This document shows, in pieces, positions 48,677 to 57,787 of a DNA stretch of 64,000 nucleotides (position 1 is its first letter; the number at the start of each line of letters is the position of its first letter). The DNA comes from Rhizorhabdus wittichii RW1. Its GTDB lineage: Bacteria; Pseudomonadota; Alphaproteobacteria; Sphingomonadales; Sphingomonadaceae. The translations under genes and the position numbers were made by a program. The notes beneath the pieces are model-generated. The model was not told the DNA's origin and searched no databases. It saw nothing but the letters and a program-made list of their open reading frames with translations. The stretch covers positions 4,281,501-4,345,500 of the forward strand of contig CP000699.1 of NCBI GenBank assembly GCA_000016765.1. Direction: 5' to 3'.

Positions 48677-48817
48677 AAATCCTCCCTGTCCGAAGGACGG
48701 GGAGGGGGACCGCGCGAAGCGTGGTGGAGGGGACGGCGGCGGAGCCGCCGCTGGCGCGGCGCCCCTCCACCAGCCTGCGGCTGGTCCCCCTCCCCATGCT
48801 GCACATGGTGAGGATCA
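48677..48817. repeat. Compound palindromic repeat between ddl and murB
   Basis: About 140 bases. Outer arms AATCCTC/GAGGAT, then GGGGAGGGGGACC/GGTCCCCCTCCCC and TGGTGGAGGGG/CCCCTCCACCA, with small hairpins inside each arm (GTCC-GAA-GGAC; AGCC-TGC-GGCT). The same architecture recurs at 54928-55068, inside murD. Its left edge supplies the ribosome site of ddl. Confidence 0.85.
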
Positions 48818-52507: not shown

Positions 52508-53721
52508 CTGCCGTTCCACCGCACCGTGTAGGTCGCTTCCTTCAGATGGGGATTCTCGCGGGTGAAGGCCAGCAGCAGGCCCATGCCGATCGACAGCGCG
52601 ATCATCGACGAGCCGCCATAGCTGATGAACGGCAGGGTCATGCCCTTGGACGGCGCGAGGCCGACATTGACCATCATGTTGATCAGCGCCTGGAGGCCGA
52701 ACTGGGAGACGAGGCCGGCCGATGCGAGCAGCAGGAAATCATCCTCCTCGCGCAGCAGGCGCAGGCTGACCCGCAGGACGATGGCGAGGTAGAGGCAGGC
52801 GATGGCGATGCAGGCGATCAGCCCGAATTCCTCGCCGATCACCGAGAAGATATAGTCGGTGTGCGGCTCGGGCAGGGTGAACTTCTCGGTCCCCGCGCCG
52901 GGGCCGGTGCCGAGCAGCCCGCCGTTGGTCAGCGTCGCATGGGCGCGGTCGACCTGATAGGTGTCGCCCTGCTTGAACAGGAACTTGTTGATGCGCTCGG
53001 TCGCCACCGAATAGAAGAGATAGGCCGAGACGATCGCGGTGAGGCCGCCCGCGCCGAGCATGCCGAGCAGCTTCAGCGACGCGCCCGACAGCATCAGCAG
53101 CACGATCCAGACCGACGCGAAGATCACCGTCTGGCCGAAGTCGGGCTGCTTCATCAGCAGCGCCGCGATCAGCGCCATCGGCACCACCGATATCAGCGCG
53201 AAGGGCAGGCCGGGATTGCGCGCCCGCAGCGAGAACAGCCAGGCCATGGCGATCGCGAACATCGGCTTCAGGAATTCGGACGGCTGGAGCTTGGCCGGGC
53301 CGATCGAGATCCAGCGGGTGGCGCCGTTGGCGGCGCTGCCGACCACCGGCACCAGCGCGAGCAGCGCGAGGAAGACCAGGCCGCCGATCAGCGCGGCGCG
53401 CCGCGCGATCTGCACCGGCAGCGCCGAGACCGCGAGCATGATCGGCACCGCGATTACCGTCCAGCCGAGCTGCATCCAGAAATAATGGCGCGCCGCGACG
53501 GTGACGCCCGCGCCCGAATAGCGGACCCCGGCGGCGGGCGAGGCGGCGGCGACGGCGATCAGCCCGACGCCGATCAGGATCGTCACCAGCAGCAGCAGGA
53601 CCCGGTCGATCTCCCAGAACCAGCGCGCGATAGGGGTGCGCTTGCCGCGTCCGAAACGCGAGCGCTTGAAGGGGGATTGCGGGGTGGGCACCGAGGACTC
53701 GAAGGACACTGCGACGTTCAT
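52504..53721 (-). CDS. ftsW: SEDS glycosyltransferase FtsW
   Basis: 405 residues, ten hydrophobic segments. A cytoplasmic start (RSRFGRGKRTPIARWFWEID) precedes the SEDS core with GATRWISIGPAKLQPSEFLK (conserved PSE), DFGQTVIFASVWIV (catalytic-region Asp) and SYGGSSMIALSIGMGLLLAF. FtsW polymerises septal glycan with FtsI. The ATG overlaps the murD stop by 4 bases. Confidence 0.96.
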   Translation of the reverse strand: MNVAVSFESSVPTPQSPFKRSRFGRGKRTPIARWFWEIDRVLLLLVTILIGVGLIAVAAASPAAGVRYSGAGVTVAARHYFWMQLGWTVIAVPIMLAVSALPVQIARRAALIGGLVFLALLALVPVVGSAANGATRWISIGPAKLQPSEFLKPMFAIAMAWLFSLRARNPGLPFALISVVPMALIAALLMKQPDFGQTVIFASVWIVLLMLSGASLKLLGMLGAGGLTAIVSAYLFYSVATERINKFLFKQGDTYQVDRAHATLTNGGLLGTGPGAGTEKFTLPEPHTDYIFSVIGEEFGLIACIAIACLYLAIVLRVSLRLLREEDDFLLLASAGLVSQFGLQALINMMVNVGLAPSKGMTLPFISYGGSSMIALSIGMGLLLAFTRENPHLKEATYTVRWNGR

Positions 53722-55205
53722 AGCGGAAGCCCCTCCACCGCGCGACGGAAAGCGTCGCCACGTGCCTCATAGTCGCTGAACTGGTCGAACGAGGCGCAGG
53801 CCGGCGACAGCATCACCACCTCGCCCGGCCGCGCCGCCGCGGCGGCATCGGCCACCGCCTGGTCGAGCGTGCCGCTCTCGGTCACCGGCTTGCCCGCCTC
53901 GCGCAGGATGCGGGCGAACATCGGGCCCGCCTGGCCGATCGTGTAGCCGGCGACGACATGGCCGAACCAGGGCGCGCAATCGTCGAGATCGTCGGTCTTG
54001 GGCAGCCCGCCGAGGATCCAGTGGATCTTCGGATAGGCGCCGAGCGCCGGCGCGGTCGCGGTCGCGTTGGTCGCCTTGCTGTCGTTGACGAACAGCACGC
54101 CTCGCTTCTCGGCGACGCGCTGCATGCGGTGCGGCAGGCCGGGATAGCTGCGCAGACCTTGGTCTATTTGACTATATGACAAACCCAGCAGCCGACAGGT
54201 CTCGATCGCCAGCGCTGCATTCTGCGCATTGTGCGGACCTTGCAGGGCTGGCCAGTTCTCTTGACCTTGCAACGAACTGGACATCACGCGCATCACACGG
54301 CCCATTTCGACGCGGCTGATGACGGGCCGCTGTTCGCCTTGTTCCGTAGTCGCCCAAGATAAAGAGGCTGGATGTATCGGTCGATTTCGAAGCGCGTTGA
54401 TTATCTCGACGCTGGGTTCGTCGTCACCGGCAATGACCGAGATACCCTTCCCCTGCATCGTGAAGAGGCGGAGTTTTGAAGCGGCATAGCCGGCGAAGCC
54501 GTCATAGCGGTCGAGATGGTCGGGGGTGATGTTGGTCAGCACCGCGACGTCGCAGTCGAGGCTCTGGGTGATGTCGATCTGGTAGCTCGACAGCTCGAGC
54601 ACATAGACCCCGCCCGCCGGCAGCGGATCGCGGCCGAGGATCGGCAGGCCGATATTGCCGCCCATCAGCGTGGGAACGCCCGCCGTCTCCAGGATATGGG
54701 CGATCAGCGCGGTGGTGGTCGACTTGCCGTTGGTGCCGGTGATGCCGACGACCTTGTGCGCGGGCAGCGAAGCGCGCGCCTGGGCGAACAGCTCGATGTC
54801 GCTGATCACCGGTACGCCGAAGCTGGCGGCATGGCCGGCGATCGGATGCCGGTTGAGCGGCACGCCCGGCGACACGACGACCCCGGCATAGCCGGTCAGG
54901 TCGATCTCGATCGGGTCGGCCAATACCAAATCCTCCCCGCGCGCAGCGGGGGGAGGGGGACCATCCGCAGGATGGTGGAGGGGGTGGCGCGCAGCGCCAG
55001 CTTCGCTGTCGCCCCCTCCACCGGCTTCGCCGGTCCCCCTCCCCATGCTGCGCATAGGGAGGATTTTTTGGCGCGCCGCCTCGTTCGAGTCCCACGCCGT
55101 CACCTTGGCGCCGCTGGCGAGCAGCGCCTCGACCGTCGCCAGCCCCGACCGGGCGAGGCCGAGGACGGCATAGTGCTTTCCGGCGAAGGCGGGGCTCGTG
55201 ATCAC
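53718..55205 (-). CDS. murD: UDP-N-acetylmuramoylalanine--D-glutamate ligase with in-frame repeat insertion
   Basis: 495 residues, about 45 longer than usual. Domain 1 starts [20 protein letters not shown]; the P-loop [31 protein letters not shown] and [12 protein letters not shown] are intact, so it should be active. Residues about 46-93 ([16 protein letters not shown] onward to AARGEDLVL) are encoded by a 141-bp palindromic repeat (54928-55068) placed in a loop of domain 1. A second oddity is lower GC over about 54155-54485 (residues 240-350). Start is GTG 55205, overlapping the mraY stop (GTGA). Confidence 0.93.
54928..55068. repeat. Compound palindromic repeat inside the murD reading frame
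   Basis: AAATCCTCCCC ... GGGGAGGATTT outer arms, then GGGAGGGGGACC/GGTCCCCCTCCCC and GGTGGAGGGGG/CCCCCTCCACC inner arms, with small hairpins (ATCCGCAGGAT, GGCTTCGCC). Length about 141, a multiple of three, with no stop in the murD frame. Sister copy at 48677-48817 between ddl and murB. Confidence 0.88.
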
Positions 55206-57694: not shown

Positions 57695-57787
57695 CGTCAT
57701 TCCCGCGAAAGCGGGAATCCACGGACGCGAAGGTCAGGAGAATGGGCGTGCCGCCGTCCATGGATTCCCGCTTTCGCGGGAATGACG
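57695..57787. repeat. Inverted repeat, GCGAAAGC type, between murF and murE
   Basis: 57695-57724 and 57758-57787 are complementary arms almost identical to those at 42239-42331, each with a CCCGCGAAAGCGGG hairpin. The spacer differs between the two copies. It separates murE from murF inside an otherwise coupled operon. Confidence 0.85.

Follow-up and report, generated by a model that had tools for sequence, protein, structure and literature searches.

The closest described counterparts of the sequence studied here are the Rickettsia palindromic elements (RPEs; Ogata et al. 2000, 2002). As presented in the available text of PMC10969869 and PMC2229807, these are repeats of about 100-150 bp that form several families and occur both between genes and, in frame, within conserved genes. 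Protein-coding palindromic repeats have also been reported from Wolbachia (Ogata et al. 2005, as cited in the available part of PMC2229807). Another alphaproteobacterial inverted repeat is that of the Caulobacter CcrM-associated intergenic repeats (CIR; Chen and Shapiro 2003), which measure about 110 bp, consist of two arms and a linker, contain GANTC and are described in the accessible portions of PMC2229807 and PMC10969869 as strictly intergenic.

We analyze here a palindromic element, termed family A, that lies within the murD frame of the sphingomonad Rhizorhabdus wittichii RW1. With RPEs, as far as the available descriptions of these go, it shares a palindrome of about 100-150 bp, a high copy number, in-frame positions in conserved genes and a tolerated peptide. 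It differs in its host, which belongs to another order, and in its GC-rich sequence; the likeness is one of description rather than of aligned RPE sequences. Furthermore, several families recur here in different species at a nearly constant murD position, and a candidate mobilizing gene, of which the available text of the two RPE sources makes no mention, is present within the element's long forms. The Wolbachia repeats, again protein-coding palindromes from another bacterial order, are likened to ours by the title of their report and not by sequence. Unlike CIR, family A is also found in genes; identity with CIR was considered and rejected, GANTC being present in none of 27 family A copies.

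REP elements are moved by RAYT (Y1) transposases. They are built of 20-40 bp units tagged with GTAG/CGTC. REP elements are the subject of PMC3733652. Both the REP/RAYT system and that of RW1 combine a palindrome with a nuclease-type partner gene; however, full units are 114-152 bp long in RW1, and the nuclease is of the DUF559, PD-(D/E)XK type and is encoded inside the palindrome. The same DUF559 domain is found in the Vsr-like Caulobacter protein VsrA, whose solitary gene stands away from that of its methyltransferase and is induced together with the DNA damage response, and which is able to damage DNA; it has been interpreted as a mismatch-repair nuclease (available part of PMC12907096). That part does not connect VsrA with palindromic repeats, and the word 'palindromic' occurs 0 times in the main text.

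A palindromic element in the murD reading frame

The analyzed stretch, hereafter the window, comprises 64,000 bp (C1:4281501-4345500) of contig C1 (5,382,261 bp) in a genome of 5,915,246 bp and three contigs. G-numbers denote genomes and L-numbers loci; both are labels of the present analysis. The features concerned are as follows, in window positions:

53718-55205, minus strand: murD, 495 aa, with a GTG start overlapping the mraY stop
54928-55066, minus strand: family A palindromic element in the murD frame, encoding MurD residues 47-93
54931-54956, no strand assigned: terminal hairpin (TCCTCCCC - GGGGGGAGG), from the alignment of 19 copies
54950-54983, no strand assigned: inner arm GGGGAGGGGGACC - small hairpin - GGTGGAGGGG
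54984-55012, no strand assigned: variable loop of the element; in long forms at other places, a DUF559 gene takes up the equivalent position
55013-55044, no strand assigned: inner arm CCCCTCCACC - small hairpin - GGTCCCCCTCCCC
55038-55063, no strand assigned: second terminal hairpin
48677-48817, no strand assigned: sister family A copy in the ddl-murB spacer

The murD product matches TIGR01087 with 355.7 bits in a profile search. The original prediction placed a compound palindrome of 141 bp (54928-55068) in this frame; the palindrome is real and in frame, but its extent is 139 bp (54928-55066). The outer arms of 35 nt (54928-54962 and 55032-55066) are 86% complementary, and further arms are nested inside. 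When 150 nt (54920-55069) are folded as RNA, the plus strand reaches -114.3 kcal/mol (z = -11.1) and the minus strand -107.7 kcal/mol (z = -8.5), neither value being equalled by any of 200 shuffles. In the 19-copy alignment the arms are invariant and, as judged by eye, the hairpin stems co-vary on both sides. Terminal inverted repeats are thus present in family A, as in MITE-like non-autonomous elements. Target-site duplications follow no consistent pattern: a possible 3-bp duplication, TCA, is seen at the ddl-murB site only, and the murD site loses native codons. No Rfam model matched the window at gathering score, and sub-threshold microRNA models were taken as hairpin artefacts.

At the protein level, the insert follows the GLARSG loop, in agreement with the predicted position in a loop of MurD domain 1. 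The element supplies the predicted 47 or so residues; however, compared with Rhizorhabdus histidinilytica the protein gains a net 41 (114 versus 73 residues up to the SPG motif), because about six native loop residues are replaced by the element. It had also been stated that the rest of the protein equals the usual length, and this proved incorrect: between the RLF and GPHN motifs, around residues 250-322, RW1 MurD is 28 residues longer again (74 versus 46), and the whole proteins measure 494 and 425 residues. This extra stretch (window 54245-54440) was considered as a second palindrome and ruled out (fold z = 0.07).

An AlphaFold run on RW1 MurD with 38 relatives gave a mean pLDDT of 86, with values below 50 for the insert (MurD residues 56-85), and places the insert between helices 42-46/50-53 and strand 93-95. 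The solved folds nearest to the model are MurD enzymes, for example 8v8y (TM 0.78 by target length, 0.70 by query length). The MurD fold is predicted to be retained, with a disordered insert.

Family A copies in the RW1 genome

The repeat occupies 34 places in the RW1 genome after merging, all on C1, one being a 33-bp fragment; the underlying BLAST search gave 71 matches with both strands counted, 40 of 115 candidates being scored. The core GGTGGAGGGG-N-CCCCTCCACC has 26 sites in the genome and the arm pattern has 61 occurrences on both strands, with no hit for the reversed control in either case. Full copies (27 distinct ones) range from 114 to 152 bp, and their lengths modulo 3 are 0, 1 and 2 in 5, 13 and 9 copies. 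With both orientations of each copy counted (54 in all), stops are lacking from frame 0 in 45, from frame 1 in 42 and from frame 2 in 40.

The sister copy announced at 48677-48817 is real and intergenic. The ddl-murB spacer is short and without the element in several congeners (G001, G002, G003, G006, G011 and G013), while G004 matches across the sister copy, G008 and G012 have a family A-like sequence and G009 has a different palindrome. In the same gene cluster, the murF-murE spacer (window 57695-57787) holds a GTCATTCCCGCGAAAGCGGGAATCC-type palindrome of another repeat family, with 33-nt arms that are 97% complementary.

At 24 of the 34 places we listed the reading frames that run across the element (none at L009). 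We scanned 30 of these 36 frames against Pfam, the others being three frames of the murD copy L001 (murD was scanned separately), L010:1317-2027, L021:1237-1740 and L030:1335-1733. Three scanned frames have a Pfam match, to lysS, sufD and ccmH, and frames without a match may still code. The element is located upstream of the gene in the lysS case, within the sufC-sufD spacer in the sufD case, and in frame in the ccmH case.

Different repeat families at one murD site

An even draw of the family comprised 179 genomes, 178 of them with a murD match. The murD start was read in 135 genomes, better-matching places being favored and weaker matches falling outside, and an insert is present at the site in 17 of these. 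Sixteen of the 132 parsed genomes carry an insert, of 13-47 residues net beyond the usual 73; the MurD of G151 is 10 residues longer, with no clear family. As for the three unparsed genomes, G111 and G154 are uninserted and G065 has an insert. The latter (L304) is a family B sequence, out of frame and with long G and C runs, which is probably a mis-assembled hairpin. At the genus level, 5 of 14 genomes have a murD insert. An insert is also carried by 35 of 80 named murD loci, a biased sample obtained with a query that contained the insert; L259 and L273 are 12 and 8 residues longer, their family being unclear. Parsed carriers number 46 in total without G065, and seven named loci duplicate unnamed records. 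All parsed inserts are in frame, the parser taking open frames only; the seven unparsed loci comprise five that are uninserted by reading, G020 and the out-of-frame G065. Most species read have no murD insert.

At least four repeat families are found at the site: A, B (several subtypes with CCCCTCCCC/CCCTCTCCCC hairpins), C (in G198) and D (in G034). Families were called by motif, and L218 was reassigned to A by eye. Among inserts of at least 12 net residues, 50 of 54 fold at z < -3, versus 2 of 111 uninserted controls; these 54 correspond to the 46 carriers, the seven duplicate records and L259, and those above the threshold are G074, L254 and G147 (one species twice) and L259. The insertion site is almost identical across carriers, and inserted alleles miss several native loop codons that are present in uninserted species.

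Family A enters murD in a single frame (ILP) in all 25 cases tested (23 by script, L218 and L222 by eye), and family B in three frames (12, 5 and 2 of 19, a few offsets possibly being mis-scored). The uniform frame of family A, in murD and in ccmH (see below), could reflect fewer independent insertions than counted, or gene conversion.

Probing 26 genomes with a family A copy yielded matches in 21. The eight probed family A murD carriers other than RW1 have from at least 9 to at least 67 matches (both strands, among candidates scored). However, G001 (at least 53), G012 (at least 41) and also G003 are rich in family A without having it in murD. A supply of elements is therefore needed but is not sufficient, and is on its own a poor predictor of murD insertion.

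Comparison with relatives, as the original prediction advised, finds the insert absent from the two nearest sister species and inserts recurring in others. It is not a sequence common to the murD of all distant sphingomonads and unlinked to intergenic copies, and an assembly error is unlikely, given a contig of 5.38 Mb and relatives with inserts at the same site.

A second gene with in-frame inserts

In RW1 ccmH, a family A element lies between the start codon and the signal peptide. We searched for ccmH in 14 congeners and obtained a match in 13; an in-frame insert is present in 7 of these 13 genes and six congeners are without it. Three families are involved: A in G000, G004 and G005, D in G003, G006 and G013, and E, a VIPAKAG/VPAFAGMT palindrome, in G001. 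By eye, all seven inserts are open from the upstream start; a restart of translation downstream of the insert is possible. Other coding insertions of the repeat had been anticipated, and ccmH, found by the Pfam scan of frames at 24 of the 34 places, is one. With in-frame copies in murD and ccmH, the proposed likeness to RPEs appears apt for how the element would work, and we claim no membership beyond that likeness.

DUF559 genes inside long palindromes

A long form of family A in RW1 (L303 1530-2006; C1:4357529-4358005) has its halves about 370 bp apart and a DUF559 gene between them (domain at C1:4357600-4357917, 84 bits). DUF559 matches were found at 132 places in 53 of 59 genomes. At 70 of these places, the better-scoring part (the top place in each of 30 genomes, followed by another 40 in list order), we aligned the 220 bp upstream of DUF559 to the reverse complement of the 220 bp downstream, with 1415 intervals of the same width in the same loci as controls (619 + 796). 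With a score of at least 18, inverted arms bracket 54 of the 70 places (23 of 30 and 31 of 40) versus 1 of 1415 control intervals (0 of 619 and 1 of 796), 16 places falling below this score; at a score of at least 20, the figures are 20 of 30 and 26 of 40 versus no control in either set. These controls are mostly genic and may under-represent intergenic hairpins; yet the arms flanking DUF559 belong to one family and are inverted. Outside the 70 places, L303 has a bracket score of 29. The score of L346, a short locus at a contig end, is 104.

Most of the flanking arms are of B types; those of L303, L345, L347, L400, L407, L408, L411 and L414 belong to family A. The DUF559 reading frame extends into the arm at several loci. 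Long and short forms have common arms in G000, and RW1 has, besides a B-type long form (460300-460721), four short copies of about 105-109 bp that share its hairpin. If DUF559, a candidate mobilizing enzyme, acts as such, these longer relatives with the same arms would be a further MITE-like trait. In L376, L387, L399 and L346 the arms around DUF559 are much longer and comprise more than one hairpin; these are perhaps further element types.

The site of the family A long form varies among relatives. In G004 the whole stretch matches at 82% on the DNA level; the element is shortened in G003, absent in G007 and represented by a few bases at most in G005. Stretches of 438-467 bp elsewhere in G007, G008 and G012 are 70-72% identical, on the DNA level, to the part bearing DUF559. 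In G009 (L420), one terminal hairpin stands where RW1 has the whole DUF559 element. This hairpin may be the product of decay by deletion rather than of clean excision, perhaps through an internal deletion between short direct repeats.

We may hypothesize that DUF559 mobilizes the palindromic elements, a proposal whose chances we regard as even. Its main competitor, somewhat less probable but to be taken seriously, holds that DUF559 is a mere passenger and that some other enzyme, for instance a Y1/RAYT-type transposase, moves the palindromes. The precedent of REP sequences and their RAYT transposases speaks for this, as do the families C, D and E at the murD and ccmH sites, for which no tie to DUF559 was found; moreover, our survey of long palindromes covered elements around DUF559 only. 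A passenger role explains less readily why DUF559 occupies the loop in two very dissimilar types of palindrome, and in many genera. In the open-licence literature, which does not include most subscription papers, the titles and beginnings of abstracts of 14 papers naming DUF559 contain nothing that joins it to dispersed palindromes.

History of the murD insertions

We built a tree of 95 MurD proteins after removing the insert columns (single gene, quick method; G005 was omitted as too short). Labels none, A, B, C and D apply to 54, 22, 17, 1 and 1 proteins. On this tree a minimum of 25 changes is required for the five states, of 14 for presence or absence alone and of 15 for the family among carriers. 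RW1 MurD groups, with a support of 98, with those of the uninserted R. histidinilytica (L204/G003) and Sphingomonas sp. Y57 (L205/G013). Closely related species may differ in family, such as L224 (A) and L276 (B), or L229 (A) and L277/L283 (B). Similarly, L220 and L221, which have different B types, and L259, which has no clear element, show nearly identical upstream flanks.

Could a single ancient insertion in the sphingomonad ancestor, followed by many losses and by overwriting through recombination with other palindromes, explain this distribution? The near-constant site and the invariable ILP frame of family A would fit such a history. However, carriers are nested among uninserted sisters whose native loop length is nearly uniform, and many losses are the less likely course because carriers have lost native codons that uninserted species keep: a loss would have to restore codons missing from the inserted alleles. 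The numbers of presence changes and family switches on the tree, and the different families in very close species (L224/L276, L229/L277 and L220/L221/L259), argue in the same direction. We consider this history unlikely and favor recurrent capture.

Proposed explanation and significance

In our preferred reading, the murD insert is probably a translated copy of a mobile palindrome, of a kind captured recurrently at this site. The element would be a short non-autonomous one, composed of a terminal hairpin, an inverted arm, a variable loop, an inverted arm and a terminal hairpin, which may have entered MurD domain 1 at a surface loop connecting the helix that follows strand 2 to strand 3. Because such GC-rich palindromes contain no stop codon in most frames, in-frame inserts would be read through into a disordered loop and be tolerated; those that disrupt the reading frame of this essential gene would be purged by selection. 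With a high supply of elements and a permissive loop, the site would be filled again and again, by different families and in many species. The long form, with a gene for a Vsr-like PD-(D/E)XK nuclease (DUF559) in its loop, may provide mobility for itself and for the short copies.

According to the original prediction, a mobile repeat has here become part of the protein product of an essential gene. This is well supported by the 34 places in the genome, the absence from the two nearest sisters and an open frame in every parsed carrier, open frames only having been accepted. Beyond that first reading, new observations are the several unrelated families at almost the same murD site, the parallel in ccmH and the DUF559 genes in long forms. 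No murD inserts are described in the open-licence literature that we searched.

We infer that the insert is neutral for MurD. The opposite idea, that selection keeps the peptide as an adaptive loop, perhaps with a role in binding or regulation, could draw on the recurrence at one site and on family A, which always uses the same frame, by eye a comparatively hydrophilic one; but unrelated families fill the site, most species read lack an insert and the AlphaFold model is disordered there, so that we hold such a function to be very improbable. Scarcely credible is a translation start after the insert, or a tract never made into protein: a TTG after the ccmH insert could begin a shorter protein, but in murD the insert is within domain 1 and comes after the GLARSG loop, so that a restart would lose that motif, and all parsed carriers are in frame. 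The tract is very likely translated as part of MurD and would thus be present in the mature protein.

Taken as a whole, these elements might represent an undescribed class, a view for which we see equal odds either way: a Vsr-like DUF559 nuclease in the loop of a hairpin-ended palindrome would spread itself together with large families of short palindromes in sphingomonads, and protein-coding palindromes of the MurD type would be a by-product, recurrently written into permissive loops of essential proteins. As far as the available sources go, protein-coding palindromes have so far come from Rickettsia and Wolbachia, which are intracellular, and have had no named mover. Here they occur in free-living, cultivable bacteria, and a single defined loop in an essential enzyme has captured them repeatedly. 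Pairs of close species with and without the insert exist in nature, so that its cost, benefit and mechanism are directly testable. The link to DUF559 provides a concrete candidate mover and hints at what this widespread domain of unknown function might do.
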